Below, piece after piece: positions 897 through 42,668 of a stretch of DNA of 64,000 nt (positions are counted from its first letter, which is position 1; the number at the start of each line of letters is the position of its first letter). The notes below the pieces were generated by a model that saw only the letters and a list, made by a program, of their open reading frames with translations, had not been told where the DNA came from and made no database searches. The stretch spans positions 12,093,001-12,157,000 of the forward strand of contig OY979717.1 in NCBI GenBank assembly GCA_963855995.1, given 5' to 3'. Position numbers and translations under genes: made by a program. This DNA is from Muricea muricata (Eukaryota > Cnidaria > Anthozoa > Malacalcyonacea > Plexauridae).

Positions 897-904
897 ATGT
901 TCCC

Positions 905-3484: not shown

Positions 3485-3505
3485 CACCGGCCCGCCCGCC
3501 CGCCG

Positions 3506-13336: not shown

Positions 13337-13930
13337 TTATATTTCTGAAGTTAATGACATGATTTGAGTTGTTAGCACATTTATATCGTTTGTATACCCT
13401 AGTTGAAAAACAGGTAAATGATCAGACATTCCGTAGTCTTTTACTTGAACATTCCTCAGACGTTCCGGGTGACTGCACCAAATATGATCCAAACAACTTT
13501 TTGAGAATGGTCTTGTAATGTCATTAACAAGTTGTGTCATATTCAAATTAGTCAGTATTTTAATAAACTCGTGTTTACTAAAATTGTTCGTGCACATAAA
13601 ATCAACATTAAAATCGCCCAACAAGATCATTTCTTTATTTAAAAGGTAGACATTCTCAATATTCCTACCCAATACCTTATCTTCACCCACCTTGTACGAT
13701 GGTGGTCGATAAATGCCGGCAATAAAAAGAGAGCGTTCTAAATTATATGCACAAATCTCCAACCAAAGTACTTCGACATCATTTGCTTTCAGATCAACAC
13801 GATGCTTTACGTTAAGCGAATTATTAACATAAGCAAGTATTCCGCTACCAACTTTCCCAGATCTATCTTTCCGATAGGTATTGTAACCGGGTATAGCATA
13901 GAAAGAGTCAGGAACTTCACCACTGAACAG
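13337..13930 (-). pseudogene. LINE apurinic-type endonuclease fragment
   Basis: The frame 13337-13762 shows IAGIYRPPS, LGDFNVDF, and SCLDHIWCS with SDHLPVF, the conserved blocks of exonuclease/endonuclease/phosphatase-type LINE nucleases. The upstream minus-strand sequence to about 13930 adds ILIITET and YPGYNT-like motifs in other frames. The intact enzyme nicks target DNA to prime reverse transcription. Its C-terminal end and the link to the RT (12480-13330) are decayed. Confidence 0.8.
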
Positions 13931-14149
13931 AAGGTTTCGGTTATGATTAAGATATCTACATGCGATGTGTTTCTGTCTTTACAAACATGGCAGGAAGCTC
14001 CTCCAATTTACTGTCCGTAAGGTGTTGAATGTTCAAATGACACATATTTAATCATTTGCTCAATTTCAGAGCTTGATAAGCTGATTAAGTTGGCCCAGGA
14101 TTTACAGCTATATCGCCAAACAGCATTAAGCAGTTCATGAATAGAACGT

Positions 14150-16511: not shown

Positions 16512-16584
16512 TAAGGTGGCTCCCTATGGTTTTGTTCAGTTATAACCGGATTTATAGAGATCAGACGTTGTCCGCACGAATCAC

Positions 16585-18891
16585 CATAGGCGGCCCAAAT
16601 CTTAGTGTTGTTTTGTCTTAGTGTTGTTTCGAATATTTTCTCTATAAGCTTTTCGCTGTTTGAAAGCAAGAAAACACACGCGTGAAGAGATTTAACGTTC
16701 GCGTGACGCTCGCGCGCGTAGCGCTCGCACTTTCGTGTCGTCATGGTTTAATATATTGACAAGGTTGGCAAGTATTTTCAAATCAAACTCATCGATAACT
16801 TTTACGAGTGCAAAAATCTTTAGAAACATCATCAATAACTTTTAAAAAACTACATAAATATAATTAATTGTAATTTTTCTACATTCCTACAAAGTTTTAA
16901 CTTAAAAAATCATTTCTAAGCAAGTTAAAAAAGCGAATTTCGGTCGGGATTTTGATAAATAGTTTCAAAACCCATGCTGGGGTCGCCAACCCTATGCATA
17001 CGTCACAGTTTTTAAATTGCGAAGAAGGCGATGATAGGCTGCTGTAAATAACGTTTTTCTTCAGAAATCCAGCAACAGGGGGGGTGCACATTAAAATTAG
17101 GACACAGGCGGTAACAAGGGGCGGGAAATTAAAAATTATATATGCGCCTGTACGGAAATACGAAATTTCGCTATGTGCTAGCGCTTCACTTTTGCAGCGC
17201 AGGAGAGTTTATCGTCTCTGATATTACCGCTAAAAATACAGGTGTAGTTGTAGTCTTGGCAATTTAAATACAGTACATAGTTGCATTAGGTCTTTGATAA
17301 AGGCATACAAAAACATTTCAAAAGGTAAGTACATGTTTTTACATACTGTAAAGGTTAAATATTATAAACTGATTGAAACTTTTGCGATTTTGTTTTGTCT
17401 TTTGTAACATTACATTTTCTTTATAAAAAACATAAAACTCACGTAACTTATGGTCTATATATGTTGCTTCACGTCTCAAGAAACAGTATGTAGGAAGAAG
17501 AAAGTCATGTAGGAAAGTTAAAGACCAACATTTCATCGGTAAGTGCGTTATTTTCATCTTTATATTAAGAAATGAAAGCTAGTGCTTTAGTCGCCAATGA
17601 TATTTTTGTTTTTGCCGGCTTTTCATATAGTTTGCGACGGCTTTTCCCACTTATAACCTATATAGGCATATTAAGTTTGATGTATATATTCACTACAGGA
17701 CAATACAATAAAGAACAAACAAGTTGTGTAAACGTTTGAAGACCTTGGCCTGTATTTTAATCGGTAAATGCAATCAGTTTTACCTTCATTTATCTGTATT
17801 TTTGTCGTAATTTTTGCGACATTTTAAGTCGCTTTATTCGTGATACCTTGGACGCCTTGCTTGAACATTGGATCATTAATTTGAAAAAAACCCTATATAT
17901 GTACGATGTATAGCTATAGATTTTAATTTTTTATGTCCCTTACAAAACAGATATATATATATACACATATATTTGCGAAGAAAGCAATCATATCGTTAGT
18001 CAATTGAAGATCGTCTTGATGTCATAATTTTTAAATTCAATCATACCAATCCTATGTTTTAAGGCATAACTAAGGTCTCTTGTTTAAAATAATTCAGTTG
18101 TTGCCATGAATAGAATACGACTGATCGATGAAAGCTTAATGTGTGGTTAAAGCCTCAAAATGTTTACTGTTTCATTATATTTCATGTTGTATTTTGCAAA
18201 CCAGAATGCTATTCAAAATGTAAAGTTTCCCGAAGAAATGATTGGCGGACTTGCTGTATGAAGATGGTGCTCATGAGCTCTTTTGGGTAGCCTTCCAGCA
18301 AAATTCAAGCAATACTATATCATACACGCTTCGAGGTAAATTAAAAAACTATTTTTGCATGCACGCTCGGGAAGAACGAAGTATCAAAATAATAATGTAT
18401 ATAAAATGGCTGATTTCAGAAAAACTTACCGAGTTGTGCCGTGCATTGTTCATCCAATCGCTTAAGTTAATATACGATCAAAGCCTTTCCAAACACATTC
18501 ACAGCCCACATTTATAATTCCACAAGTTCCAATAAAATATAGAGGAAAAAAACAAGTACAAAGGTCTGTCAAAAAGCACTGGCAACAAGACAAAATTCAT
18601 CGCAAGAAAAAGCGTATCAAAACGTTATCGTATGAGAAAAAACCGTTACCGCATTGCTAAGCACGGTGTTCTTACCTTACAATATTCGTTTTAAAGCATA
18701 CATTTGCGAAAAATTGTCCAAAAAACAAGAGAAATCCAAGCACTTTTTAGCATGTGCATCATTCGAACAAAACGAACAAGCAGGCGAGTGCTGACGCCAC
18801 TTGAGAAAACCGGTTTGACAAGAATATTTTTAACTGAAGAACAACATGTTCGACCAATGAGAGCACGACAAGAAATTGTGTTGAGAAAATT
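16585..18891 (+). repeat. Left TIR of element C, outer part
   Basis: This is the inverted copy of 35142 down to about 32836, with only rare single-base differences by eye. It is interrupted at 18891 by the DIRS element and continues at 23508. It contains modules ending in splice-donor-like GGTAAG (about 17321 and 17539) and small frames (18242-18517, 18704-18889) of basic or unremarkable composition. None matches a family I know. Confidence 0.9.
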
Positions 18892-19315
18892 GAAAATTAA
18901 ACGAGACTTACCTGTAAGTTGAAGTTTGATTGGAATTCTATGAGTCATAACACTGCATCTAGGGATCACATGAGATTGCATCGCGCATGCGGACATCAGT
19001 TTTTAAAGCTCGAATGTGAATGTAATACTTACAATACCAATTATTAAGCTAAGTGTACAACCTTCAAAAGACATTAGGATACACTTGTCAACGGGTGGGG
19101 TAAGGAACCCGCGGTGGGCATGTGATCCCTAGATGCAGTGTTATGACTCATAGAATTCCAATCAAACTTCAACTTACAGTTAAGTCTCGTTTAATTTTCA
19201 ATTCTATTTCGTCATAACTGCATCCGGGATCCCATGAGATTTTAAAGCCAACATTCACATGAGAGTTGACAGAGAATGACAGTTTAGTAAACACAACTGT
19301 ATTTATGTAACACAA

Positions 19316-20512
19316 CTAGTAAACATATATAGTATTCATACTGTTACTGTACATGAGAACAGCCTCTGCAAACCCTGAGCTGTAATTAACCGGTTTATTG
19401 TAGAACCTATCAAATGTTCGTTGACTGGACCAACCAGCTTGCTTAAGTACGTCCTGTATAGGTACACAGGATTGAAGAGCCTTTGACGTAGCTGCGGACC
19501 TCGTGCTATGCGGTTTAAATACATTTACATCAATACCCGCATCTGTCATAACTGTACGGATCCACCGAGATATGGTGTCTTTAGAGACTCCCTTGTGAGG
19601 CTTCACATAGCTAATAAACAATCTGCTTTCGACGCTCCTCAGTGACTTAGTTCGTTCAATATACTCGTTTAAATGTGTCACAACACACAAATGACGATCT
19701 ATTGGGTAGGCCTTCAAAAGCACCGGCTGAACTTTATAACCAGGCCTACTTTGTTTAATATGTCCCGGAATAACAAATTCCACTGCGTCAGTACTTAACT
19801 TCATAAAATGTAAATCCAGTAAGTGAATGCTTTGAGTTCTTTGCGCTGACACAAGAGCTATTAACATGGCAAGCTTGTGGGTCAGTGACTTTAGGTCCAT
19901 TTCTGTCGCTGGTCCGAGGGATACCAGGTGTGATAGCATAGGTTGGACGTCCCATGTTGATTGATATCTAGGGGTAGGTGGTCTGCTTTTAAAAATTCCT
20001 TTCATGAATCTTGATATTAATGGTTGGGATCCAAGGGAGATGCCATTCTTCGGAGTCGCAATGGCTGAGATGGCTGACTTTGCTGTGTTAATAGCATCAT
20101 ATCTCAGTCCTCTCTCAAAAAGGGATGTTAGATAATCTAGCACTCTAGTTATAGGTGGGTCATATGGATTGGTATTCCATTTACCACACAGCTCCATCCA
20201 TGTTCTGAGGTAGGTGCTGTATTGTTTAATTGAGCCTTCTGACCATGATTGCATAATAATGTCTGCTGCTTTGCTAGAAACATCCGTCTGCATGATACTT
20301 GTCCGGATAATTTGCATGCTATCAATCTTATTTTCCTCTTGAGTGGGTGCTGGGCACCCGTATGAGGGAGAGTTAGCAAGTTGTCTGCTTGCGGTAGAAC
20401 CAGAGGATTGTCCACTAATAAGTTCATTAGCACTGAAAACCACGCTTGAGTTTTCCAAAAAGGCACGATCAGAACACCTGTCGCTAGGTCCTGATCTATT
20501 TTCTGCAAGCAC
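19316..20512 (-). CDS. DIRS tyrosine recombinase
   Basis: This ORF holds a complete tyrosine recombinase. The N-terminal SAM-like region is near SEGSIKQYSTYLRTW. The catalytic domain has the first arginine in SAQRTQSIHLLDL, the His-x-x-Arg box HSTRSAATS and the nucleophile tyrosine in FDRFYNKPV near the C-terminus. All key residues are visible, so activity is plausible. The true protein start may be later than the ORF start, because the first part overlaps the RNase H C-terminus in another frame; overlap of this kind is usual in DIRS. The enzyme would insert the circular DNA copy without a DDE integrase. Confidence 0.85.
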   Translation of the reverse strand: MLAENRSGPSDRCSDRAFLENSSVVFSANELISGQSSGSTASRQLANSPSYGCPAPTQEENKIDSMQIIRTSIMQTDVSSKAADIIMQSWSEGSIKQYSTYLRTWMELCGKWNTNPYDPPITRVLDYLTSLFERGLRYDAINTAKSAISAIATPKNGISLGSQPLISRFMKGIFKSRPPTPRYQSTWDVQPMLSHLVSLGPATEMDLKSLTHKLAMLIALVSAQRTQSIHLLDLHFMKLSTDAVEFVIPGHIKQSRPGYKVQPVLLKAYPIDRHLCVVTHLNEYIERTKSLRSVESRLFISYVKPHKGVSKDTISRWIRTVMTDAGIDVNVFKPHSTRSAATSKALQSCVPIQDVLKQAGWSSQRTFDRFYNKPVNYSSGFAEAVLMYSNSMNTIYVY

Positions 20513-20703
20513 TTGGAGATCACACTAAATGGTGGGAATGCATAAAAATGATAAGTTTCCCAATTAAAACAAAATGCATCAGTGAATTGAGCCCCTGGAT
20601 CCGGTCTCCATGAGGCATAACTAGGCAATTTATTGTTAAGTCTTGATGCGAATAAGTCTATAGTCAAAGGGCCCCCAAGCTGCTGAAATGGTTTGAAACA
20701 CAT
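20149..20703 (-). CDS. DIRS RNase H C-terminal extension, in a shifted frame
   Basis: This frame continues the RT-RNase H protein: TIDLFASRLNNKLPSY, NWETYHFYAFPPFSVISKCL and LVLPQADNLLTLP are the usual DIRS domain following RNase H. It is one base out of phase with 20636-22282; the overlap is near TTGGGGGCCCTTT (about 20660-20675). It is either a single-base indel in a run of G and C or a translational frameshift. The end overlaps the tyrosine recombinase by about 360 bp. Confidence 0.7.
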   Translation of the reverse strand: MCFKPFQQLGGPLTIDLFASRLNNKLPSYASWRPDPGAQFTDAFCFNWETYHFYAFPPFSVISKCLQKIDQDLATGVLIVPFWKTQAWFSVLMNLLVDNPLVLPQADNLLTLPHTGAQHPLKRKIRLIACKLSGQVSCRRMFLAKQQTLLCNHGQKAQLNNTAPTSEHGWSCVVNGIPIHMTHL

Positions 20704-22282
20704 CTGTTGACAGAGACCATTCTACAGAGTCGTTAAAGCGTCTGGATGCTTGGTCAGCTTGGGTATTTTGGGCCCCTGGGACATGACGGGCACTTAGCCA
20801 CACACATTTTGTTAAGCACCAGCCCCAAATTTGGAATGCCATATCATTACATACTTCTGACTTAACACCACCCATTGAGTTAATATATGCCACTGCAGTG
20901 GTATTGTCTGACTGCACACATATGTGTATATCATGGCAGTCTTTGCACAATGATTTTAACCCAAGCAATACTGCTTTCATTTCCAGGTAATTTATATGAA
21001 ACTCTTGTTCTGTTGGGCCCCAGAGGCCCCCAGTATCCTGCCCATCTAACACTGCCCCCCAACCTAAGTTAGAGGCATCAGTAGTTAAAATCACATCGGG
21101 GTTACTAACAGTTAGTGATTTGTGGGAGTGAGTAATATTATCTATCCACCACTTTAACTCAACCCTTGATCCCTCAGACAAATTCATAAGGGCATCAAAG
21201 TTACCACAACTGAATCTCAATGCTTTTATTTTACTGAGTTCCAGTTGCCTATAGTATAGTGCTCCATAGTCTGTGGCTGGCAAACTTGAGACTAAAAGTC
21301 CAATAACATGGGCCACATCTCGTATAGTGTGCTTTTTACTGTGCAACAGTGTCTCGCAGGCACACTTAACTTTGTCAGCCTTAGTGGCTGACAGTCGTAC
21401 AGTCATAGTGATGCTATTGATCAAGAACCCAAGAAACTCAATTTCTTGAGTAGGTTTCAATATAGATTTATCAGGATGTATGGTAAAGCCTAAATGAGTA
21501 AACAACCCAACTGTGGCACCAACATTATTCTCACAGCTGTGGTAATTAGAGGCAACCAGTAAAGAATCATCAATATGCCCCATGCATGTATGCCCCAACT
21601 CTCTGAGATGTGCATACACTGGTTTAAGAATTTTTGTAAACAGCCTGGGAGCACATGCAAGGCCATTTGGCAGGCAAGTAAACTGAAAATAAGTGCCTTG
21701 CCATTCAAACATTAGATATTTTCTATCCTGTGGAGCTACTGGAATGGAATAGTAAGCATCCTTCAAGTCAACAGATGCCATAAAGCAGCCCGGTCGAATA
21801 AGGCTTATGGCCGTTTGAAAGGTGTCCATTTTAAAATGGTGGTATGCAACAAACTCATTTAATGATTTGAGATTAAGGATCATTCTGTGACTGCCATCCT
21901 TTTTAGGTCTGACAAATACATTTGATAGATAACTATCATTGGTGTACACAGCTTCCTCTATTACACCTTTGTGACTAAGTTTGGTAATCTCATTCTGAAT
22001 GATCTCCTTCTCTGAAGGTGAGAAGGTCTTATTTACAGGAGGTGAGATTTGTACCAGAGGTGTCTCTGCAAACTCAATGTTATAGTGCTGAATAGCACTT
22101 AAAATAAAAGGATCCTGTGTAATCAATTCCCAGTGGGATAGATGATTCTTTACTTGGCCTGCAACAAAAGCCAGTGTCTGGCATTGCAGTTCATCTCTAG
22201 TAGGTACTACCAATTTCCTACAGTTATGGTCTCTTACCTGTGTTGTTACTGGTCCTTCTTGCTGTTCCTCTTGTGCGGCCAC
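20636..22282 (-). CDS. DIRS reverse transcriptase and RNase H
   Basis: The RT shows ASVDLKDAYYSIPVA (motif A), CLPNGLACAPRLFTKIL (motif B) and GHIDDSLLVAS, the DIRS form of the catalytic box with two aspartates. RNase H follows with ILTTDASNLGWGAVL, INYLEMKAVLLGL, VQSDNTTAVAY and HVPGAQNTQADQASR, so all four acidic positions are visible. The frame overlaps gag at its start (22246-22282) and leads into a shifted frame at 20636-20703. Apart from that shift the protein looks intact, which agrees with a young insertion. Confidence 0.9.
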   Translation of the reverse strand: MAAQEEQQEGPVTTQVRDHNCRKLVVPTRDELQCQTLAFVAGQVKNHLSHWELITQDPFILSAIQHYNIEFAETPLVQISPPVNKTFSPSEKEIIQNEITKLSHKGVIEEAVYTNDSYLSNVFVRPKKDGSHRMILNLKSLNEFVAYHHFKMDTFQTAISLIRPGCFMASVDLKDAYYSIPVAPQDRKYLMFEWQGTYFQFTCLPNGLACAPRLFTKILKPVYAHLRELGHTCMGHIDDSLLVASNYHSCENNVGATVGLFTHLGFTIHPDKSILKPTQEIEFLGFLINSITMTVRLSATKADKVKCACETLLHSKKHTIRDVAHVIGLLVSSLPATDYGALYYRQLELSKIKALRFSCGNFDALMNLSEGSRVELKWWIDNITHSHKSLTVSNPDVILTTDASNLGWGAVLDGQDTGGLWGPTEQEFHINYLEMKAVLLGLKSLCKDCHDIHICVQSDNTTAVAYINSMGGVKSEVCNDMAFQIWGWCLTKCVWLSARHVPGAQNTQADQASRRFNDSVEWSLSTDVFQTISAAWGPFDYRLIRIKT

Positions 22283-23334
22283 CCTGTTTGGAGTGCCGCA
22301 CGGCCATGCACCAAAAAAGGCTTCTTACTTTGATTTTTATAGTTGTAGTTTTGCCGTGGTCGTTCATAAGGTTTCTGGGAGTGAGGTCTCTGCTGAAAAG
22401 GTTTCTTTTGCAGTTGTTTACCCACTCTACTAACATCAGTCATCTCCTTTAAATGCTTCTGGAGGTCATCCCCAAAAAGCTTGGTTGTTGGAGTTATATC
22501 TGGTTTACATAAGCGAGTAAATGGAAGGTTTAGGTCAGGTTTAATCAACTCACGTCTCTTCATGTTCAAACTCCAGTTAGCATGCGTCACTAGGACCAAG
22601 CTATCCATGACATGATGCATAATATCAGTCATGTTGGGAGTTTGTTTATTCTGCACATCTTTTGCTAATTTATCAGCAAGAAGTGCAATCGAAGAAATAC
22701 CCTGTGTCAGGGTTTCCTGTACGCGCTGAAAGGCAAGATCTACTGATCTGCTTCGTCTGGGTAATAAATCCCATATTTCCTCATTAACAAGTGAGGTACA
22801 AACATTCTCACAGTTCTCCGGCGGGAAATACTTCCCACCACGTTCTTTCGCTACCTCAGGCGAGAGTTTCCCCGAGAGGATGCTGTTTATCAATGCAGCA
22901 ATCTTCTCTGCAACTGCAGGTGATTTCTTTTGTGAGGGAATGTATGCCTGTGTCAGACTTTCGAGTAAATCTAATTTCGGCTCTGTGTCAGAGCTTTGTT
23001 CAGAATGTGGAGTAGATGTAGTGGCGTCATTTCCGTCTGATGTGAGCAAGGCATTTACAGCGTTTGTTGGGTCGACCGTGTCGGTCTCACCGCCTTGTTC
23101 CGTTGCCACATCCGAGTCTTGTCGGAGTAGAATATCTTCGTGAAGGTTCTGGAAGGCTGTCGACTGATCTTTTGAGGCTTTAGCCAGATCCACCAAGGAA
23201 CTCTGAATACTTTGCAAGATTCCCGCCAAACCAAAGCTGGTACCTTCTGTCGATAAAACCGCATCTTCTGCCAGGAGAATCTCCTCTTCCGACGGATTAT
23301 TTGCTATTTCTTTCGAGCTGGACATCTTGTACAC
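22246..23334 (-). CDS. gag: DIRS gag-like protein
   Basis: This first ORF of the DIRS element, 362 residues, starts close to the 5' inverted terminal repeat. It is acidic and Ser/Thr-rich in the N-terminal third. The middle has a helical region (NEEIWDLLPRRSRSVDLAFQ) and the C-terminus is rich in Lys, Gln and Arg (KKPFQQRPHSQKPYERPRQN). This matches the layout of DIRS gag proteins, which lack CCHC knuckles. It presumably packages element RNA. It overlaps the RT ORF by 37 bases in another frame. Confidence 0.8.
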   Translation of the reverse strand: MYKMSSSKEIANNPSEEEILLAEDAVLSTEGTSFGLAGILQSIQSSLVDLAKASKDQSTAFQNLHEDILLRQDSDVATEQGGETDTVDPTNAVNALLTSDGNDATTSTPHSEQSSDTEPKLDLLESLTQAYIPSQKKSPAVAEKIAALINSILSGKLSPEVAKERGGKYFPPENCENVCTSLVNEEIWDLLPRRSRSVDLAFQRVQETLTQGISSIALLADKLAKDVQNKQTPNMTDIMHHVMDSLVLVTHANWSLNMKRRELIKPDLNLPFTRLCKPDITPTTKLFGDDLQKHLKEMTDVSRVGKQLQKKPFQQRPHSQKPYERPRQNYNYKNQSKKPFLVHGRAALQTGWPHKRNSKKDQ

Positions 23335-23507
23335 CCGTTATCTTTGCTATTTTCCGTAAAGTCGATAAAAATGCGCTTCAAAAGTGTATTTTTTCCCTTG
23401 ACTGTAGAGCTTTCTGCACTGATGATCGCGTAGCGTTTAGCACTGATGTCCGCATGCGCGATGCAATCTCATGGGATCCCGGATGCAGTGATGACGAAGT
23501 AGAATTC

Positions 23508-23795
23508 CGCAATTTTTGATTAGAACTCGTGTGTTTTCCTTCTAATTACTGTAAGCATATGTTTGATAACTATACTTATCATATTTAGGTCACGCAACCA
23601 CTATGCCACTATAGTTCATACGACGACCCTACAATATTAACCGGTATATGGCAGTGGAGGAATGTGATCAGGCGCCTATCACGTTTTGGTAATGCACGTT
23701 TAACATTTCAGCATGATCATGCAACAGTTAATTCTCCATTTCTTAATGTACTTTGATCAGTCCTAATTTTTAGTACTTTATACTATACAAGCAAC
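23508..23795 (+). repeat. Left TIR of element C, inner part
   Basis: This is the continuation of the left repeat after the DIRS insertion, and matches 32547-32835 inverted. The match ends at CTATACAAGCAAC (23795); beyond it the two sides differ, which defines the inner limit. Confidence 0.9.
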
Positions 23796-24077
23796 TTGTT
23801 GATAACTTTGAGGACACCGACGCCGGAACGTTTGTTGCTACGTAGACAAAACAAGAACGCCCGACTAAAATGAGAAATGTACTGTTGAGAAAATCTTTAG
23901 TGTTACATTGACTTAGAGACTCCTGAGTTACTTTATACAATAATACGTGTTCTTTCTGCATTTTCATTGGTCGCGAGCTGCGTGTTTTTAAAGTACACAC
24001 GCACGGAGACGTCAACTGATGGCGTGATCTAATTTAGCTAATTTATTTTGCGGGTCTTGATTTTTGCCAACTTTATT

Positions 24078-24262
24078 GTAATATAGAACAAATAGATTTT
24101 ATTTTTTTGTGCTTCTGTACCGTAATAGATCACAGATGACGCCACAGCGTTTGAAGAACATAAAGTCACGTTTTGTTCTCAACACGCCATGACGTCATCT
24201 GCGATCTATAACAGTACAGACGCACGCAAAAATGAAATCTATTTGTTAATTGTAATAACGCA
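24078..24262. repeat. Inverted repeat just upstream of the PIF1 gene
   Basis: Arms of about 70 bp (24078-24150 and 24184-24262) pair, with shared blocks ACAAATAGATTT and ATAGATC-CAGATGACG. The loop is about 33 bp. It may be a small MITE inside element C or a structured part of the helicase promoter. It lies about 120-300 bp before the helicase start. Confidence 0.75.
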
Positions 24263-24378
24263 TATATTCGGCGAAATGTTTATAAAAATAAGGATAGTTT
24301 CAATGCGCTTATAGGTTATACTCCATGTATAATTATACGTTCATTCTAATTGTAGACCTAATATACCCGTTTCAGGAA

Positions 24379-26403
24379 ATGGATAGACCTCTGCATTTAA
24401 CGGATGAACAGCAATTAATTTTGAACCTAGCAAAAAAGGGCCACAATACTTGTATACTTGGCAGAGCTGGTGTTGGAAAATCTACAACCGTCCAAGAAAT
24501 CGAAAAGGCACTTTCGGCTCAGGGAAAGAAATGCCAAACAGTTTGCTCAACTGGCATTGCATGTCAGAACTACGGCGGTATAGCTAAAACCGTACATTCC
24601 TTCTATGGCCTTCAAATGGCAGAATTTCCATCCCAAAAATTAGTTGAGCGATCCGTGGTGCAAGAGAAGATCAGGAAGAATGTCAATGATACAGACGTTT
24701 TGATATGGGATGAGATTTCCATGTCGAGTTGCAGATTTTTAGAACTTGTTAACATGATTCATCACTTGATTTCGGATAACAACTTCGCATTTGGAGGCAT
24801 ACAAGTCATACTTGTTGGAGACTTTTGGCAATTAAAGCCAGTACCCAGTGTATTTGATGAGGGCAAAGCAATGTACGAGTCTAAAATTTTCGACGAAGCG
24901 TTTCAGCACAGGATCGAGCTGACGAAAATTCTCAGGCAGTCGGATATGCGGTTCAAGAATTGGCTGGACATGCTGCGAGTCGGCGAATGCAGTGAAGAAG
25001 GCGAGGAGTATGCTCAGAGCCTCGACAGAGAAATAGCAACGGAAGAAGGAAACGAGCCCACCTATATCTACTTCAGAAAAGTCCATGTGGAATTCCATAA
25101 TGGGACTGTGTTAGCAAGTCTTCCTGGCGGATTGATCTATTTTCAGAGTGTTGACACTGGCCACTTATCCGGCCTAGAGAAAAATATCCCAAGAATTGTT
25201 GCTGTGAAACCAGGATGTAAAATAATGCTGCTGTACAATATCAACGACAATCTAAAAAACGGGTATCAAGGTGAATTCGTTAATAGTGATCCAGAAGACG
25301 AAAATAAAATTCTCGTGAGCTTTCCTACGGCTGGCACAGTTAGCTTAAACCGAAGAACGTGGATTAAATATGCTCCTGACGGAAGCGTTCAAGGTACTCG
25401 CACACAATTTCCTATCATTCCATGCTACGCGATAACGGTGCACAAGTCTCAAGGTTTGACATTGAATTCTGCTGTCGTTCACTGTTCCCAGGAGTTTGTC
25501 CACGGCCTAACGTACGTTGCTATGTCGAGAGTAAAATCGCCAAACAACCTTCGAGTAATTAATTTCCACCGTAAATTCTTGTTGCCACAACCACAAGAAC
25601 TGGTTAATCTTGCAAGAACTGTCACCCTAGAGCCAGACGACACTTACGCATGCTGCAGATATCGACCTCTGGACACCAGTCATTTTGTGAACGTCGACAG
25701 TATTATGCAACTTGAAGAGCAATCCACCAAGGTTACTAACGAAGATTTCGACACTGATGCAAATAGTGATGATGGAATCGAACGTGAAGAGTATTTTGAA
25801 ACCAGCGAAGCAACGGCGACTTGCCCACTTGAAGACGTCCTGTTATGTTTGATACCACACTTTCAAACAGAATTGTCAACTCCACCAGCTACGTTCACCA
25901 TGTTGACATTTCTTACCTCGATAATCACCAAGCATTCCGATTCCTACAGTGAGGCGATCAATGCTGCAGCGAAGTATGCCATCGACAATTTGGAAACATT
26001 TCAGTTATTAGGAAGCATACTCTGGTGCCGTATCGTTTTGTTGTTTGAGCAGCATTTGGCAGATAATCCTGAGACTATCAACATAACGAACAAAGACTTT
26101 ACTTGCGCGACATCAGGAATACACGAACTGTTTTTGTCTCGGGAATATCGCAAGGACCTGAAAACTGCTTTTAGCGTGAAAGAGCTTACCGTTGGGCAAC
26201 GGACTCTTGGCGCGCAGTTGGTATTTTATCTCTATCAAATTTTAACCGTTGAGATTGATAAGAAAGTTAAAAAGGTGGACGCAAAACCAGTTGATTTTAA
26301 CGTTACAGAAATGGAAGACGTTGGATTAGGAAAAGTACGTTATGTTGGTGCGTGGGCAATACGAAAGTCTCTTGACAAAAGTCGAAGGTATTGTAACAGC
26401 TGA
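24379..26403 (+). CDS. PIF1-family DNA helicase carried by element C
   Basis: A single open frame of 692 codons runs from 24325. I prefer the methionine at 24379 because the conserved N-terminus starts there (DRPLHLTDEQQLIL) and TTTCAG just before it may be a splice acceptor. Motif I is GRAGVGKST, motif II LIWDEISMSS, then QVILVGDFWQLKPV, LTKILRQSD, and near the end of the core HKSQGLTLNSAVVHC with TYVAMSRVKSPNNLRV: all superfamily 1B motifs of PIF1/RRM3 helicases are present. About 260 further residues have no known domain. PIF1 enzymes unwind DNA 5' to 3' using ATP. No Rep/HUH domain or nearby Helitron end is seen. It is intact, so probably recently functional. Confidence 0.92.
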   Translation: MDRPLHLTDEQQLILNLAKKGHNTCILGRAGVGKSTTVQEIEKALSAQGKKCQTVCSTGIACQNYGGIAKTVHSFYGLQMAEFPSQKLVERSVVQEKIRKNVNDTDVLIWDEISMSSCRFLELVNMIHHLISDNNFAFGGIQVILVGDFWQLKPVPSVFDEGKAMYESKIFDEAFQHRIELTKILRQSDMRFKNWLDMLRVGECSEEGEEYAQSLDREIATEEGNEPTYIYFRKVHVEFHNGTVLASLPGGLIYFQSVDTGHLSGLEKNIPRIVAVKPGCKIMLLYNINDNLKNGYQGEFVNSDPEDENKILVSFPTAGTVSLNRRTWIKYAPDGSVQGTRTQFPIIPCYAITVHKSQGLTLNSAVVHCSQEFVHGLTYVAMSRVKSPNNLRVINFHRKFLLPQPQELVNLARTVTLEPDDTYACCRYRPLDTSHFVNVDSIMQLEEQSTKVTNEDFDTDANSDDGIEREEYFETSEATATCPLEDVLLCLIPHFQTELSTPPATFTMLTFLTSIITKHSDSYSEAINAAAKYAIDNLETFQLLGSILWCRIVLLFEQHLADNPETINITNKDFTCATSGIHELFLSREYRKDLKTAFSVKELTVGQRTLGAQLVFYLYQILTVEIDKKVKKVDAKPVDFNVTEMEDVGLGKVRYVGAWAIRKSLDKSRRYCNS

Positions 26404-26882
26404 CGTTAAAAATACTCAGTACTCAAAAAGCAGTTTGTAATACCCACGAGTCCGTAACAGGATTGAGATTAATCCTTATTTTAGGTACTAGGTGCCAGTA
26501 ACACTGCAGTCTAACGTTGCACGCATAAGTGAGGTGTCAAAAAAAGCACAGGAAAACTAAACGCTATAATTGTACATATGGAGGTACAGACTCTCGTGTA
26601 AGTGGGGAAGTTTTCACTAGCTCATAATGTATTTTAAGCATTTTTTTCTAGAGCGCTATGAAGGCGGCGACCATATACTTCTCCTCAGCCTTTTCAGAGT
26701 TTTGATTGTTGCTGGCTCGAACACATCACTCGCGCATGCGCAAACGTATGAGGTCGGTGTTGGGGCCGGTTGTTTGAAAATGCAGTTTCCAAATGCACGT
26801 TTTGAAGTTTTGCATATAATACCCTGCCATTTTGCGGCAACTCAGTAGCTTAATTCCTCGTTTTTTATGTTGCAGGTATATT
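26404..26882. other. Spacer between the helicase and companion gene
   Basis: No domain is recognised. The frame 26627-26848 is unremarkable. TTTTTTATGTTGCAGGTA just before 26882 may be a splice acceptor or may simply precede the companion gene's start at 26883. No polyadenylation signal is clear. Confidence 0.4.
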
Positions 26883-27872
26883 ATGGAAAACAAGAATTCA
26901 GAAGCTAGCAAGACCAGAGATCAGCTTAAAAAGGAGATGGGAATGCTGGATCTTTTGAATAACAACATAGTCATACCATACACCGTTATCGAAAAGTGTA
27001 GCGTCTACCCCGAAACTCTTAATGTCACCGAATCGCGTCAGTACAGAGAAAGAGGATTGTTGCACATATCCGACAGTTCACATGAATTCTTCTTGCTACT
27101 GGAGCAGGAACGAGTGAACCACATAAACCTCCAGATGTTTTCGTTGTTGAAGGTTGACATGGTTGACGAGTCTATTCGAGATGTCCTAAAGAATAAAAGT
27201 TTGAAAAATAAATTCATTAGCTTGTTTGAAATTAAATCAGACGAAGAAAAGGTATTTAACAAAATTGAATCAGTACTAGCATCAGCAACATACTGTAGTA
27301 TAATAGTGATTAACGTGCATACGTGCATATGCATATTAGAATCATATGAATAGTACATAGTTCGTTGTATCTTTTTCAAGGAATTGGTACTGCAAATATT
27401 TGAAGAAATTGTTGTCCGCTACATGAAAATGGGCTGTGGACAATTTCTGAGAGGGTTTCGCCGCGATTTCCATCTAAAGAAGAGCATGGCACATCGGAAA
27501 GCAGTCTTAGAAAGAAAAGAGAAAGCCGCTGAAAAGCGATTGAAAGTCGAACTGGAAACGATAGAAAACGATAGAAGCCCTTCGAAACGTTCTTCTCATA
27601 TCCGCCTGCTAGCTATGATTAACCAAGTGAAAGAGAAAGGTATGATGAGATTGTACACAAAAAATGAACTGCAGAAACTTTGTTCTGCGTATGGGGTTAG
27701 CTATATGACGAAATGGAACAAAACCAAGATTGCAAAGGAACTAACGTTGAAGGTTGTGAGTTGCACTGAGATGCCGTGCCACGACGTAATGTCGCGATTC
27801 ACTGTGGAAGAGGTGTCCACTTCCAATAACGCCCCACATCGACTCCCAGTACTGCGAATTCGACGCATCTGA
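26883..27872 (+). CDS. Companion protein of the PIF1 helicase, two exons, unknown function
   Basis: Exon 1 starts MENKNSEASKTRDQLKKEMG and runs to about 27290. An intron ends at TTTTTCAAG near 27380, and exon 2 continues from LVLQIFEEIVVRYMKMG to 27872. Reading across gives about 300 residues. The region QFLRGFRRDFHLKKSMAHRK is followed by a charged likely coiled coil (KAVLERKEKAAEKRLKVE) and a C-terminal LYTKNELQKLCSAYGVSY...NKTKIAKEL segment that resembles a SAP-like or helix-extended-loop DNA-binding motif (weak inference). It lies directly behind the helicase on the same strand, so they may be co-expressed and work together. I do not recognise a named family. Confidence 0.65.
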
Positions 27873-28755
27873 ACTAAATATGAACAGGAAATGTTTCTTG
27901 TTTGCGAAAAGAATTTCTGGTGACTATGCCGTGCAGTATAGACATGCATGTTGCAATTTAAAGTAGAGACATCTTGCAATTTAAAATATGAATAAAAGAC
28001 AAGCAGTTGAGACTGTAGATTTTCGAATTAATTTCAAAGTCAAAAACAGACGGAATGACACAAAAGACTTTACATACAGCACTGATATATGTACAGAGCA
28101 AGAAAGTGAGAGCACTGCGTCACCGGAAGCGAGACATTATCTAAAACTGCATGTTGAGTTATATTTACATGATATAGCTAACAACTTGACACAGAACTGA
28201 AGGCTAGCAAAGAACTTCAGCTTTTTACATAGTAACGCTACATTATCCTTTCTATACAAAGTCGAAAATTTACGGTCTCTACTGCTTCTCTTGTTCTTGT
28301 TTTATCCCAGTTTCAGCTTGATAATTGAAAAGGGGGGACATTCAATTTCATGCATACAGTTGTGTCCACGGGATCATGCATAAGAACATTTGATTCGAAA
28401 AGAAATTAATAATGCTGAATATGAATATATGAATATTGCATGCAACCTCAATTATCGATCGAAATGGTTTATATATATACACCGCTAATTCAAATTATAA
28501 CATGGTTGATATACCTAAAGGTTTGCATTTTCAACTAAAAAGGACATCACAAACCAACAGGCATACCAGTAGTTGGCGGTTATAATTTAAACGTTGTGAT
28601 TTGATAGACATGTAATGCATATTGAGTACTAAAAATTGACGATCCAATGGATATTATCTTAACGTTAATTTTTTGAAATTATTAAATGTACAAGACAACT
28701 ATTTTTTGACTCACCATCATGTAGTCTAGTTGAAAGTTTGCCGGAAGAGTTTCAT
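27873..28755. other. Convergent intergenic stretch inside element C
   Basis: This lies between the 3' ends of the plus-strand companion gene and the minus-strand transposase. The 70-residue frame 27988-28200 (starts MNKRQAVETVDF) has no known motif; it could be a small gene or chance. The rest shows nothing I can support. Confidence 0.4.
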
Positions 28756-31700
28756 CTATAAGAGGAGACCTGATGTTGCTTCGCAGCTGGCTTTATTGGC
28801 TTTCCCAAAGATGCCTTCTTTTGGCAAGCCAGCAAATGAACTATTCTTCATGCCGCCAGTATTGCATTTTTTGCTAATTGTTGTTTGCCCAAGAATTACT
28901 GAGTTTTGTGTTCCCAGGGTGAGTTGATACGTTGGGTTCTCGTTTTGCCCGTTCGCTGCTCGTAACTGCGAAAAATGGTTTTCAACCACATCTTGATTGA
29001 TGATCGCGGGTTTTATCAACGTACCAGGAAATTTGGAAAGTTTTGTGTTTACCATGGCCGTAAATCCCAGTATCATTGATTGTAAATCAAACCATAGTTT
29101 CTTAGAAATGAATTCTTTTTCATTAGTTGCTTCCCGCTGCCATTCACCGAAGAACTTTAGAGATTCATTTAGGTCTTGAAGACGGGAGTCGTGTGGGTGA
29201 TAAATAGCATGTCTATCCGAAAACAATTCTACCATTCGACTTGTGTGAGTTAAGAACAATATTGTCATATCCAACCTCTCGGGATTTTCACCTCTGATCT
29301 TTTTCAGATGCTCTTTATTCAAAAAATTGAAAATATAGTAACTACTTGTTAACTGAGAGCAAGGTCTTTAGGGGAAAATATTTAACCGAGGTCATGCCGT
29401 ATTGATTGAGCGACAGCAAGACCTACATATTTATATACTTCCATATTTTGCTTGTTTGTTGCTGTAGGGCATCAAGCATTTCGTAATGCCATACATATCT
29501 ACTAACATATATACCAACAATTACCTTCATTAAAAATAACATCCTTTTGTCCAACACATCCTCAGCCAACCCATTCCTCATTCTAGAGCTCGGAGTGAGT
29601 TCAAAATGCTCCTCTTTAAGTCGTTCATGTAAAGGGCAAGAATTACTCTTCTGGTCCCAGAGATAAGCCTCTTTCCAGTGAGACCAGAAGATATTCTTGC
29701 CACCTTTGGTTAGCACTCGTTTACCCCCACGACTGTTGCTCTTCTCGACATTATTACGCAGTTTCTTAATGTTGTGCTGCATACAAACAGATAAAAGGGA
29801 GTTGTTTTTTGAACACGTCTATAACATGGCTTTTATGGCTTTGGTTTTCTCACCCATACCGACGCATTCCAATTGATGCAAAACGTAGAAAAGGGGACAA
29901 TATGCATTATCCACAAGACGAAAAATTGTGAACTAAGATACCTTGGAATCCATCGTGAATATCATTGGATCGCCCGTCAGCATGTTGTGGCCAGTGAAGT
30001 TTAAATCTCTTGGATTCGATGTTGGGAAATGGATCTTAATAAACTGGCGATTTGAATCGGCACCGTCACAAATCATCTGATATATACTTATTATAAAAGG
30101 AGAGTTATACCAGTTAATGTAGTTTGAGTATGAACCATTAGAACTTATAATACTGTTACATAAACAAGTTTCTTCATAGATAAAAATTGTACTATTTCCT
30201 TACGTAAATCCTGCCCTCTTCATCTGCATTACGCCTTCCCAAAATTGTAAGTACAGGACTGAAGGTGAACATTGCGACGTTGGGAAGTGGGCTAAGGGAA
30301 ACCGGAAACCTCCATCACTTAGGAATATGAATTGAAGGAGGTGCGTAGCTAACTGAACGGATGACTCGCCTATACATTTAAAAAAAGACATGTCAACCAT
30401 ATTGTATCATGTGTCAGTGCTCAATGCAGACTGACTTATATTTGATAAACACTTCTACTCGAGTGCCTACGATAGTACATTTTTACCAGATTTTATTCCT
30501 TGCAGCGCATTGTGGAATTCGCCAAGTGACACGATTCCTGTCAAGCGATGTTTACCACCTCTGACGGTCATTTGCAGGTCTTCCTATATACAGTAACATC
30601 TTTTACAATATATACATGCTTAATATACTACAATTTGAATTGTTGAGATTCAAATAACAGTGTATCGTGAACACAACCAGACAAGGAACTATCCCGGAAA
30701 GGGAGGCGGTTTTAGTCTAACCTGGATTTTCATTTCGTCTATAATAAAACCGCCCCAGTAATCTTGGTCTTTCAGACTTTGCTGCTCGGCCTCCCGTTTG
30801 CACCACGATATCATTTCGTAATTCCATCCAGGCTCTTGATGCACAGAATTTTTATAATACCTGAAAATTAAGAATAAAAATCATTAATGGTTTGTTTTAA
30901 TTAAAATAGATATCTATAACACGATTACCTGATTAGACGACTACTTGGCAGCTTCACAAATTCACGCATTGAGTCAAGTGCTTTGGGATTTTTACAGTAG
31001 AGATCCCAGGCGAATCTTACAATCCTGCAATTTCAATTACAAAAATACATACACGAAAGGTACAGGTTCTAAAACTACTGGAAATGATGAAGGATTCATG
31101 AAAATTTGACCTTGTCATATATGTCACCAACTTATCCCTTCACCTACACTTCCCCATGACCCTCGTTAATTACTAGTTTTTTAATTACGTTATATAGACT
31201 GAGTGTATTGTTTGGGGTGGCGGATATTCGATAGCAGACCAATCGCTAATGGTAATTTCGCACTTTCATGGTAATAATATATTTCTAAGAAATCACACAA
31301 TGCTACCTTGGATCCCATCTGTGTCCCTTGGGGGATTTTGCAGACAGTTGCTTCATCTGCTCATCCCAAAGCAATTTCATATGAGGTGGCAAGGACGAGG
31401 TGTCGATCGTATTCACAACATCCAATATGTCGGCGTGATCTTCATCTAGGAATTCAACATAATCTTCATCTTTCAACCGTTGATTTTTTCCCTTCCTTAT
31501 TTGTTTTTCTGTTGATCCATCTTGCTCTCCAAGCCCTTCCTTGCCATAAATCGCTGGTTGCACTTGGGGTGTGGAGCTTGTTGGTGATTTGCGCTCTTAC
31601 GCCTTTTATTCATCCTCTTTTTGAACAGCCTGAAGATGTATGCGCATTCTTGACAGCAACATACGCCTGTGATAGGATTCGGTGGTGTTAGGGAAAATAT

Positions 31701-32225
31701 GGAACAAGACAACGATACAACGAATGTCTTATCATCGTGGGAAACGACTTTCGAGTTGCAAACGGGGACTCTGTAATAGTCGTTTGCGTCGTCAGGAATT
31801 GGTTGTCCGAAGCACACACTTGCTATGTCCACGTAACGAATCGCTAGGTCAATGGAGGACAGATTAACCCTGAGGTCTTCCACACCCACGATACGTTTCA
31901 TAGGAACTTCTCTCGTGTCGGCACTGATCCTTATTTCTGGTTGTGGAAGCATATACACACCAATTTGCAATGTAGTACGCTGGCTGTTCTTCATTATAAC
32001 AAGGTGCTGATCTTCAGTGCTTTTAGAAGCAATAAACCAGCCTTGATGGTTCACCAAGAGCAGTTGATTAACTAATTCTAAGGTAGACTCGTCAATTACA
32101 AGTGGTTCCTGATTAATAGGAGGCCGCTCCACGAGATTTCTGTAGCCAGAACCATCATTGTTTCTACAGTCCTTTTTTGTCACCTTCCCATTCCAGATCC
32201 TTTTAATATAGATACCCAACGTCAC
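28756..32225 (-). CDS. P-superfamily (THAP9-like) transposase, multi-exon
   Basis: About nine exons can be traced on the minus strand with GT/AG borders: 32225-31303 (one internal frame change near 31500-31560), 31024-30929, 30860-30722, 30583-30487, about 30375-30205, about 30075-29944, 29776-29525, and about 29330-28756. Key blocks in order: VRFAWDLYCKNPKALDSMRE; GFIIDEMKIQ with the first catalytic aspartate; GFRFPLAHFPTSQCSPS; ICDGADSNRQFIK; HNIKKLRNNVE and HFELTPSSRMRNGLAEDVLD of the GTP-binding insertion domain; KLWFDLQSMILGF; NQDVVENHFSQLRAANG with the catalytic glutamate. These are P-element/THAP9 transposase hallmarks. I could not find an N-terminal THAP finger; a first exon in 32230-32546 may be missed. 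The shift near 31500 could be a small intron or a defect. Confidence 0.8.
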
Positions 32226-32546
32226 TGAGTTAACGTTATAGCCAGCCTGTACTGCAACATTTAAAATCGATCACGTAGCAACAAACTTTCCTTCGGCGTG
32301 CTCATAGTTATTAAGCAACCTTAAAAAACAATTGATAGGACATTTGCTGTTTCCCCCCTTAGTTACCTAGTATTCTTGGGTTTCACGTGACGTCTTAAAT
32401 TTCGGTGGGGAGCAATTCTATTAAATCGAGACACAGTCATCAGATTAATTTAAATGTTCAATACAATTCTACAACAGTAAGGTTGTCCTCACTTATAATC
32501 ACTGCATAATAAAATAGTAAAATCCAAAAATAAAGTAGAAGCTAGA

Positions 32547-35142
32547 GTTGCTTGTATAGTATAAAGTACTAAAAATTAGGACTGATCAAAGTACATTAAG
32601 AAATGGAGAATTAACTGTTGCATGATCATGCTGAAATGTTAAACGTGCATTACCAAAACGTGATAGGCGCCTGATCACATTCCTCCACTGCCATATACCG
32701 GTTAATATTGTAGGGTCGTCGTATGAACTATAGTGGCATAGTGGTTGCGTGACCTAAATATGATAAGTATAGTTATCAAACATATGCTTACAGTAATTAG
32801 AAGGAAAACACACGAGTTCTAATCAAAAATTGCGAAATTTTCTCAACACAATTTCTTGTCGTGCTCTCATTGGTCGAACATGTTGTTCTTCAGTTAAAAA
32901 TATTCTTGTCAAACCGGTTTTCTCAAGTGGCGTCAGCACTCGCCTGCTTGTTCGTTTTGTTCGAATGATGCACATGCTAAAAAGTGCTTGGATTTCTCTT
33001 GTTTTTTGGACAATTTTTCGCAAATGTATGCTTTAAAACGAATATTGTAAGGTAAGAACACCGTGCTTAGCAATGCGGTAACGGTTTTTTCTCATACGAT
33101 AACGTTTTGATACGCTTTTTCTTGCGATGAATTTTGTCTTGTTGCCAGTGCTTTTTGACAGACCTTTGTACTTGTTTTTTTCCTCTATATTTTATTGGAA
33201 CTTGTGGAATTATAAATGTGGGCTGTGAATGTGTTTGGAAAGGCTTTGATCGTATATTAACTTAAGCGATTGGATGAACAATGCACGGCACAACTCGGTA
33301 AGTTTTTCTGAAATCAGCCATTTTATATACATTATTATTTTGATACTTCGTTCTTCCCGAGCGTGCATGCAAAAATAGTTTTTTAATTTACCTCGAAGCG
33401 TGTATGATATAGTATTGCTTGAATTTTGCTGGAAGGCTACCCAAAAGAGCTCATGAGCACCATCTTCATACAGCAAGTCCGCCAATCATTTCTTCGGGAA
33501 ACTTTACATTTTGAATAGCATTCTGGTTTGCAAAATACAACATGAAATATAATGAAACAGTAAACATTTTGAGGCTTTAACCACACATTAAGCTTTCATC
33601 GATCAGTCGTATTCTATTCATGGCAACAACTGAATTATTTTAAACAAGAGACCTTAGTTATGCCTTAAAACATAGGATTGGTATGATTGAATTTAAAAAT
33701 TATGACATCAAGACGATCTTCAATTGACTAACGATATGATTGCTTTCTTCGCAAATATATGTGTATATATATATATCTGTTTTGTAAGGGACATAAAAAA
33801 TTAAAATCTATAGCTATACATCGTACATATATAGGGTTTTTTTCAAATTAATGATCCAATGTTCAAGCAAGGCGTCCAAGGTATCACGAATAAAGCGACT
33901 TAAAATGTCGCAAAAATTACGACAAAAATACAGATAAATGAAGGTAAAACTGATTGCATTTACCGATTAAAATACAGGCCAAGGTCTTCAAACGTTTACA
34001 CAACTTGTTTGTTCTTTATTGTATTGTCCTGTAGTGAATATATACATCAAACTTAATATGCCTATATAGGTTATAAGTGGGAAAAGCCGTCGCAAACTAT
34101 ATGAAAAGCCGGCAAAAACAAAAATATCATTGGCGACTAAAGCACTAGCTTTCATTTCTTAATATAAAGATGAAAATAACGCACTTACCGATGAAATGTT
34201 GGTCTTTAACTTTCCTACATGACTTTCTTCTTCCTACATACTGTTTCTTGAGACGTGAAGCAACATATATAGACCATAAGTTACGTGAGTTTTATGTTTT
34301 TTATAAAGAAAATGTAATGTTACAAAAGACAAAACAAAATCGCAAAAGTTTCAATCAGTTTATAATATTTAACCTTTACAGTATGTAAAAACATGTACTT
34401 ACCTTTTGAAATGTTTTTGTATGCCTTTATCAAAGACCTAATGCAACTATGTACTGTATTTAAATTGCCAAGACTACAACTACACCTGTATTTTTAGCGG
34501 TAATATCAGAGACGATAAACTCTCCTGCGCTGCAAAAGTGAAGCGCTAGCACATAGCGAAATTTCGTATTTCCGTACAGGCGCATATATAATTTTTAATT
34601 TCCCACCCCTTGTTACCGCCTGTGTCCTAATTTTAATGTGCACCCCCCCTGTTGCTGGATTTCTGAAGAAAAACGTTATTTACAGCAGCCTATCATCGCC
34701 TTCTTCGCAATTTAAAAACTGTGACGTATGCATAGGGTTGGCGACCCCAGCATGGGTTTTGAAACTATTTATCAAAATCCCGACCGAAATTCGCTTTTTT
34801 AACTTGCTTAGAAATGATTTTTTAAGTTAAAACTTTGTAGGAATGTAGAAAAATTACAATTAATTATATTTATGTAGTTTTTTAAAAGTTATTGATGATG
34901 TTTCTAAAGATTTTTGCACTCGTAAAAGTTATCGATGAGTTTGATTTGAAAATACTTGCCAACCTTGTCAATATATTAAACCATGACGACACGAAAGTGC
35001 GAGCGCTACGCGCGCGAGCGTCACGCGAACGTTAAATCTCTTCACGCGTGTGTTTTCTTGCTTTCAAACAGCGAAAAGCTTATAGAGAAAATATTCGAAA
35101 CAACACTAAGACAAAACAACACTAAGATTTGGGCCGCCTATG
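32547..35142 (-). repeat. Right TIR of element C, uninterrupted
   Basis: This 2596-bp inverted copy of 16585-18891 plus 23508-23795 has no insertion and therefore shows the empty site of the DIRS element (junction near 32836). Small frames at 32823-33023 and 33210-33485 are the same as those in the left copy. Confidence 0.9.
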
Positions 35143-35552
35143 GAATCACGCGCGTGGAATGTTCGTGGCCAGCTATAATAAAATTTTTCACATTCAAAGT
35201 TGGAAACATTGTTTTTGCCGATATTTTTGTGTTTCTACACACAAAAAAGACGACAGTTCTTTCTTACAATCGTTTGTGTTTCCAAGTTCAAATATTAGGT
35301 GCTTTAAATCAGTTTTAAAACAATGTTTAGGCGCTTTTTTATATCCGGTAATGTAATTTTTGTTGCTCGAAATTTTACGAAAGTGTATGGACTCCGACTG
35401 AACCATTTTGTATTGTCTTTATCGACTTCATGGCTCTTCTGAAATGTTACCGAAGCTTATGTAAGTTTTCTTGTTTAATTAAGCTCGGATGTCTGTCGTG
35501 TTTTAATAAGATAGTCTTATAACTATCGTGCATACAGTCATGAGTTTTGAAC

Positions 35553-36202: not shown

Positions 36203-36506
36203 TAGGCCGTCTGCTGTGGCAGGAAAATGTGCCTAGGAAATGATTTTCATTAAGCATGTCGTGGAACTGAAATATTTTTTAATAACTTACCACTTTCGAC
36301 CATGTAGAATCCAAATCCAAAGACTTCCCGCGCCGTAAACCCGCAGTATTTTTGCAAAAACCATTTATATTTTCAATATTTCAACAAGATATCGACACTC
36401 GCCCGCCATTTTGAATTTTGTTCTCAGTAAAGTCGCATCCCTCGAAAGAACGTTTGTTTTGTTCCAATCTCCGGATTCGCGCCATAATTGTTATTTTGAA
36501 TGATGG
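36203..36506 (+). repeat. Left inner inverted repeat of element B
   Basis: About 300 bp matches 42376-42668 inverted, with shared blocks CATTAAGCATGTCGTGGAAC, CCAAATCCAAAGACTTCCCG and ATTCGCGCCATAATTGT, and an estimated 10-15% difference by eye. It brackets the nuclease/CXC gene closely on its 3' side. Confidence 0.85.
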
Positions 36507-42375: not shown

Positions 42376-42668
42376 CCATCATTCAAAATTACAATTATGG
42401 CGCGAATCGGGAGACTGGAACAAAACAAACGTCCTTTCGAGGGATGCGAATTTATTGACGACAAAATTCAAAATGGCGGCGAGTGTCAAAATCTTGTTGA
42501 AATATTGAAAATATAAATGGATTTTGAAAAAATACTGCGGGTTTAAGATGCGGGAAGTCTTTGGATTTGGATTCTGCTTGGTCGAGAGTGGTAAGTTATG
42601 CAAAAATATTTCAGTTCCACGACATGCTTAATGAAAGTAAACGATATCGTGCCACAGCAAACGGCCTA
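42376..42668 (-). repeat. Right inner inverted repeat of element B
   Basis: This is the mirror of 36203-36506. It starts about 75 bp upstream of the nuclease gene's start codon, so it may include its promoter. It is more diverged than the repeats of element C, consistent with B being older than C. Confidence 0.85.

Follow-up and report, generated by a model that had tools for sequence, protein, structure and literature searches.

P elements are a standard example of cut-and-paste transposition carried out by a single protein. According to the cited parts of one account, the Drosophila P element is 2.9 kb long, with 31-bp inverted arms, a THAP domain and 8-bp target site duplications, and either homologous recombination or end joining mends the break left at its donor site, a process in which Bloom helicase takes part (PMC7776569). 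Galileo arms reach up to about 1.2 kb and are described, in the cited part of PMC3573991, as the longest of the P superfamily. The element considered here lies in a 64,000-nucleotide stretch of the Muricea muricata assembly GCA_963855995.1 (contig OY979717.1, positions 12,093,001 to 12,157,000; the whole stretch is called the window), where positions 16585-35142 hold a single transposon copy, c1. Its identity is almost certainly that of a P-superfamily lineage bearing a PIF1 helicase gene. Each unit is about 13-14 kb long, with inverted arms of 2.3-2.6 kb around two convergent genes, a P-type transposase and a long PIF1.

Self-comparison of the window reports one dominant inverted pair, 16584-18891 against 35143-32836, continued by 23503-23796 against 32839-32546. 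When 16585-18891 plus about 23504-23796 are aligned with 35142-32546, the arms differ in 2 columns out of 2597; the arm self-comparison gives one mismatch and an ambiguous junction with a DIRS-like insertion. Near-identical inverted repeats of about 2.6 kb, CATAGG tips and a 7-bp GAATCAC duplication, all claimed by an earlier note on this DNA, are thus present: the tips stand at 16585 and 35142, with CATAGGCGGCCCAAATCTTA at both ends, and the duplication is found directly outside both. The same note took 16585-35142 as one P element, which holds as far as it is a single copy with both tips; positions 18892-23503, however, are a foreign insertion. Because this DIRS-like element of about 4.6 kb splits the left arm, the transposon itself is about 14 kb long rather than 18.6 kb. 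The border features are as follows.

16578..16584, no strand: left target site duplication GAATCAC (tip/flank comparison)
16585..18891, plus strand: left terminal inverted repeat, outer part, with tip CATAGGCGGCCC (self-comparison, arm alignment)
23504..23796, plus strand: left terminal inverted repeat, inner part (self-comparison)
32546..35142, minus strand: right terminal inverted repeat, unbroken, 2597 bp (self-comparison, arm alignment)
35143..35149, no strand: right target site duplication GAATCAC (tip/flank comparison)

Shortly after the inner end of the left arm and before the start of PIF1 there is an imperfect palindrome of 161 bp (window 24087-24247), which the other large copies have too.

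The helicase gene is on the plus strand, with PF05970 at E 3.1e-25 in the Pfam scan and profile matches to Pif1 structures down to 1.1e-87. It is intact, as had been claimed, since c1 retains the whole frame. A separate companion gene had also been proposed at 26876-27872. However, the relatives P0004 (799 aa) and P0029 (845 aa, Paramuricea clavata) read through into this region in one frame, P0029 extends to its end, and a three-exon splice model joins it to the helicase as a protein of 958 aa, which rules out a companion as a gene of its own. By its core domain the protein is a PIF1 helicase, and its helicase activity is predicted.

24379..26387, plus strand: PIF1 exon 1, covering the helicase core and the beginning of the helical C-terminal part (Pfam, relatives)
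26876..27251, plus strand: PIF1 exon 2, first half of the supposed companion gene (splice model from P0004 and P0029)
27381..27872, plus strand: PIF1 exon 3, second half of the supposed companion gene, C-terminus (splice model, relatives)

The multi-exon P-type transposase that the earlier note placed inside the element is found on the minus strand. Its TNP-like RNase H domains are recognised by PF21787 (E 1.5e-7, above the cut-off), as well as by PF21789, which scores 23.7 bits in the joined model (cut-off 24) and 26.1 bits for the exon alone. There are 11 relatives at E<=0.001 (3 from octocorals, 2 from stony corals, 1 from an anemone, 1 from a pearl oyster, 3 from a priapulid, and 1 unnamed), and the named relatives of PIF1 and the transposase include Paramuricea, Dendronephthya, and Actinostola. 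According to the transposase domains and the 7-bp duplications, the element belongs to the P superfamily. A putative exon at 29461-29387 was dropped for lack of support from relatives; the queries for transposase relatives, for the TNP domain scan, and for the genome-wide transposase loci still included it.

28715..32340, minus strand: P-superfamily transposase, about ten exons (start and splice sites by eye; frame broken in the window copy)
32251-31307, 31024-30929, 30860-30722, 30583-30487, 30369-30204, minus strand: transposase exons
30076-29942, 29776-29525, 29352-28770, 28755-28715, minus strand: further transposase exons
reaching to about 32340, minus strand: N-terminal part of the transposase

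The host genome (453 Mb, 74 contigs) contains at least 6 large copies, c1 to c6. Only the best 40 of 428 candidates were scored in this search, so further large copies are possible. What lies between the roughly 2.6-kb arms is PIF1 and the transposase in all 6, and the order is the same as in the window (inner left arm, PIF1, transposase, right arm), nested insertions and gaps aside. Copies lacking PIF1, with clean borders around 24000-28700, were looked for, and all six proved collinear across PIF1. The copy without a nested insertion, c4, is 13,798 bp long (C1:41020968-41034765). Perfect and mutually different 7-bp duplications (GAATCAC, GCTGGAT, ATCACAC, and GTTATAT) surround each of the four large copies that have both tips and flanks; c3 has lost one tip, and c6, the flanks of which were outside the duplication comparison, keeps its left tip. 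These clean, different duplications indicate that the unit moved as a whole, and the six loci rule out chance or an assembly artefact. A seventh, decayed place has an arm fragment at C1:50309369 (79% identical) and a PIF1 fragment at C1:50311524 (89% identical).

The same layout extends to a sister family of 12.9-13.0 kb, represented by d1 (C3:430071-442967) and d2 (C1, from 15613973). Its transposase and PIF1 are convergent, its tips are CCTAGG, and both copies have perfect 7-bp duplications (ATATAAA and CTATTAC), while its 2.3-kb arms have no DNA likeness to those of the window family beyond one 14-mer. This 14-mer, AAGGTTGGCAAGTA, has the same orientation in both arm types (position 177 in the window family, 107 in the sister family); it is a weak link, as a common 14-mer of some kind turns up in 34 of 200 randomised arms, and it is absent from both miniature copies checked. 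That PIF1 is part of a separate element inserted into the P element, for instance a Helitron, has a practically negligible probability. PIF1-type helicases are typical of Helitrons, and a Helitron transposase appears among the Foldseek matches; however, no Rep (HUH) domain was found in Pfam scans of the frames examined, no border is seen at PIF1 in the six copies, no empty-site copy with a matching solo PIF1 element was seen, and the sister family with its unrelated arms has the identical layout. A separate insertion of PIF1 is ruled out by the six collinear copies.

Genome-wide loci point to the same association. At each of the seven other transposase loci with DNA examined (L026-L032, 54-62% identical), the C-terminal exon of PIF1 adjoins the 3' end of the transposase. 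Among the best candidates, which alone were scored in the transposase and PIF1 genome searches, PIF1 lies within 12 kb of 34 of the 44 clade transposase loci (>=50% identity), tail to tail in 34 of 34, and within 12 kb of 1 of 11 more distant P loci. Conversely, a transposase is near 34 of 43 PIF1 loci with >=40% identity and near 2 of 14 below 40%; about 0.17 transposase-PIF1 pairs are expected under uniform placing. For ten loci, distances computed from the transposase exon and from PIF1 exon 3 correlate at r 0.975, with 0 of 5000 shuffles as high; among these loci L028-L030 are near-identical and L030 and L031 look like mutual copies. When the comparison is confined to six distinct families, r is 0.79, matched by 2 of 720 permutations, and leaving out L032, a partial locus, brings it to 0.74 (3 of 120).

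Selection has been estimated from the large copies. The dN/dS ratio of PIF1 is 0.24-0.39 in all 15 pairs of the six copies, with Fisher P<0.05 in 14 of them (c3-c4 has P 0.054), the copy pairs being non-independent. For the transposase it is 0.09-0.22 in 9 of 10 pairs (at most 369 codons from four exons of five copies, c6 left out), and the remaining pair, c3-c4, has an uninformative 0.78 on 8 changes only. Judged by these ratios, PIF1 is under purifying selection between copies; taken with the collinear copies, the pairing and the distances, it is a long-standing component of a P-superfamily lineage. Since many related copies repeat the arrangement of these two genes, the helicase seems to be a functional part of the transposon rather than an accidental passenger.

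The earlier note had offered captured cargo as one reading of PIF1, and transposons carrying captured genes are indeed described elsewhere, in the cited part of PMC6431247. That PIF1 is neutral cargo, or a host gene recently captured and spread by the transposase, is nevertheless very improbable: it is common to several families in the same position and orientation, has diverged along with the transposase, is under purifying selection, and is present in 6 of 6 copies. The cargo reading is largely refuted by these points, and purifying selection, the 34/44 pairing and the distance agreement rule out recent capture.

Further loci were noted in the same searches. Two pairs of transposase-PIF1 loci, C1:95339336 / C1:95923048 and C4:4397872 / C10:8643014, have identical scores and the same spacing, and are either recent segmental copies or assembly duplicates. 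PIF1-like frames without a P transposase within 12 kb are found at C1:85050226-85052280 and C9:8166679-8167998 (720 and 982 aa open, 31-34% identical) and perhaps belong to another kind of element. A fragment of the window family's arm (91%) at C1:50587729-50588091 has a distant PIF1-like frame (33%) as its neighbour, about 750 bp away at C1:50588841-50589845.

As for the arms, the left and right ones of the same copy differ at 2/2597 positions in c1, 3/2597 in c2, 9/2549 in c3, 2/2538 in c4, 24/2550 in c5, and 42/1708 in c6, as well as 3/2236 in d1 and 4/2315 in d2. Thus, the difference within a copy is 0.08-0.94% in five of six large copies and 2.5% in c6, compared with 2.5-5.8% between copies of different subgroups; in the close pairs c1-c2 and c3-c4 the arms are 0.2-0.6% apart. 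None of the 134 gap-free biallelic sites of five copies separates all left from all right arms, while 31 of them mark both arms of c5 and another 31 mark both arms of c3 and c4. The likeness within copies and the zero sites separating left from right show that the two arms of a copy evolve in concert and have been homogenised within element lines.

Small relatives bear on what transposition requires. They have in common with the large copies only the outer 160-500 bp. Of the six examined, three have perfect duplications (GTTTGAT, GTCGCTC, and ATCATAC), one has an imperfect duplication (CTGAAAC/CTTAAAC), and two have a damaged tip and no duplication. Two palindromes at separate loci, 331 and 327 bp long, are nearly identical and have variants in common, yet the duplications around them differ; ~160 bp of outer sequence thus appear to be sufficient in cis. 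A tip search with <=2 mismatches reports 44 places, while the reversed pattern gives 0. More tip pairs, with a spacing of 220-464 bp, stand at C2:7849750, C2:46430012, C2:47770909, C2:71158269, C3:17954111, C4:6170471, and C1:34705738; such pairs are a miniature family riding on the element. The short relative L045 (C1:97084900-97094000) contains an inserted frame of 492 aa at 2734-4212, Harbinger/PIF transposase-like by eye.

From these parts a mechanism may be proposed. The transposase would cut at the tips, with about 160 bp of each end sufficient in cis, as the miniature relatives suggest. PIF1 starts 583 bp inward of the inner arm end in the window and tens of bases inward of it in the sister family, and since both genes start near the inner arm ends, their promoters most likely lie in the arms. 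After excision PIF1, as a 5'-3' helicase, might promote D-loop synthesis of long tracts, resembling break-induced replication, by which the 14-kb element is copied back from the sister chromatid or the homologue, and might unwind snap-back structures formed by the long inverted arms; one arm would be rebuilt from the other during copying, so that arms stay alike. Break-induced replication with Pif1 is known from yeast, and Pif1 acts in D-loop migration. A role of PIF1 in repair or copying of the element is the likeliest one but a tentative proposal, to be put somewhat short of an even chance. According to the cited part of PMC13237216, break-induced replication uses PCNA, Pol delta, and Pif1. 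A stronger version, in which the element is a semi-replicative P element that relies on PIF1-driven, break-induced D-loop copying with arm rebuilt from arm in each cycle, is unlikely. It is possible, as the earlier note suggested, that PIF1 aids the replication or processing of very long terminal repeats; the concerted arms fit this, short of proof. The full statement, a PIF1-bearing P lineage whose helicase promotes long copying and arm processing, is probable on balance.

PIF1 could instead be a core gene for maintenance with no role in transposition, which helps replication forks to get through the cruciforms and hairpins of the 2.6-kb inverted arms and guards the element against deletion. 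Forks are stalled by long inverted repeats and assisted by Pif1, and two families whose arm sequences are unrelated both keep arms of about 2.3-2.6 kb; on the other hand, the host has Pif1-type helicases of its own, with no sign that the element needs more, and miniatures with ~160-bp arms appear mobile without PIF1 in cis, though action in trans may occur. This maintenance role is rather doubtful.

The C-terminal part of PIF1 invites one more alternative. In the structure prediction of P0029, the model is good in those parts of the core that are present and continues into a long helical C-terminal part; the Foldseek matches listed for it include Pif1 helicases, a Helitron transposase at rank 40, herpes helicase-primase, and RecD. 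For the helical part (about 450 aa), the matches listed contain no PDB fold beyond helicases of this type. Used as a query, it retrieves at least 26 proteins including P0029 among the best 7996 candidates scored, and those matches that are named or common to the PIF1 search represent the same PIF1 family. Such a segment, found only with this PIF1 family, makes an extra function conceivable, such as countering host silencing or steering insertion to chosen sites. The 7-bp duplications, however, are varied, and another task of this kind is quite improbable.

Several results weigh against the full statement given above. No PIF1 shows within 12 kb of 10 of the 44 clade loci, and no transposase shows at 9 of the 43 close PIF1 loci; these unpaired loci may be either fragments or an effect of searches that scored part of the candidates. 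The first Mantel value (0.97) is inflated, because near-identical loci were included, and the fall of r to 0.79 over six distinct families lowers the weight of co-divergence. The whole PIF1 frame is found in c1 and c4 alone, that is, 2 of 6 copies, while c2, c3, c5, and c6 have gaps or stops. The transposase of the window copy is broken by a frame disruption absent from all five other large copies, and by a stop near its N-terminus that is not in c4, the only copy compared for it. Regarding the arms, those of c3 are 0.35% apart, about equal to the c3-c4 distance of 0.24-0.43%, and ordinary host gene conversion between inverted repeats can equally yield concerted arms. The IMG/VR scan with the PIF1 protein gives no match, and with the PIF1 alignment the matches listed from IMG/VR and GTDB include distant Pif1-like helicases from viral and bacterial records. 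For the N-terminus of the transposase, the structural model used below is poor overall (mean pLDDT 50) and its RFX5 match (E 0.028) is weak.

Scans of the frames and relatives gave no THAP domain, and in the window element, c4, and d2 no single frame contains a C2CH signature with THAP spacing. The model of the relative P0123 has the Drosophila P transposase 6pe2 as its best PDB match (E 7.0e-9, the next one 1.5e-8; 6p5a also matched), with RFX5 third (TM by target 0.70). Its N-terminal 80 residues are predicted to form a helix, a strand, two helices, and two strands, with pLDDT of about 75. An RFX-like winged helix in place of THAP is thereby suggested; for P0127 the RFX match is below threshold (E 0.12). 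The combination of RFX with a P transposase was not found in the open PMC literature.

The insertion that splits the left arm has the following features.

18892..23503, minus strand: DIRS-like retroelement, outside the transposon proper (borders uncertain by about 4 bp)
22249-23337, minus strand: gag-like frame (by eye)
20639-22324, minus strand: RT/RNase H (reverse transcriptase) frame (RVT_1, E 2.1e-18)
19319-20524, minus strand: tyrosine recombinase frame (Phage_integrase, E 7.9e-9)

Among the best 40 of 428 candidates scored, the end of this element alone is present at nine other genome places with 91-100% identity, and it therefore seems to have been recently active. Elsewhere in the window, mobile-element frames recognised by eye at 737-6162, 11609-13978, and 57240-62818 represent BEL/Pao-like, LINE-like, and hAT-like pieces, and an inverted pair of 262 bp, 92% identical, lies to the right of the transposon (36245-36506 and 42376-42636).

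A P element with PIF1 was not found in the open PMC literature (titles and abstract starts; Repbase and most subscription papers were outside the scope). A helicase kept through long divergence suggests that host repair is insufficient for very long elements, or is taken over. It also connects transposon size and arm length with a repair helicase carried by the element, in a way open to testing, and provides a natural system in which to study how arms are homogenised.

Among known systems, Helitrons also have a PIF1-type helicase, yet they move by Rep-based rolling circle and have neither long inverted arms nor target duplications, whereas the present element has long arms, 7-bp duplications, and no Rep domain in the frames scanned. 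AcademH is a DDE transposon lineage with a helicase, but both its superfamily and its helicase are different. The RNase H-like transposase is shared with the Drosophila P element and vertebrate THAP9, as the match of a relative's model to 6pe2 and 6p5a indicates; in contrast to them, the element has 7-bp duplications, two genes, a length of about 14 kb, and no THAP domain found. KolobokH, according to the cited part of PMC9587614, is likewise a lineage of DDE transposons that brings an accessory helicase, RecQ, but differs in superfamily, helicase family, and TTAA duplications. The likeness to Galileo, of the P superfamily in Drosophila, is structural only and comprises a P-type transposase, long inverted arms, 7-bp duplications, and short non-autonomous relatives, as far as the cited parts of PMC2775673 and PMC3573991 describe it. 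The consensus of the Galileo duplication is given there as GTAGTAC, and here T is at position 2 in 7 of 9 duplications and A at position 6 in 8 of 9. Galileo arms, however, reach about 1.2 kb and no element-borne helicase is named in those parts, whereas here the arms are 2.3-2.6 kb long and the element carries PIF1.

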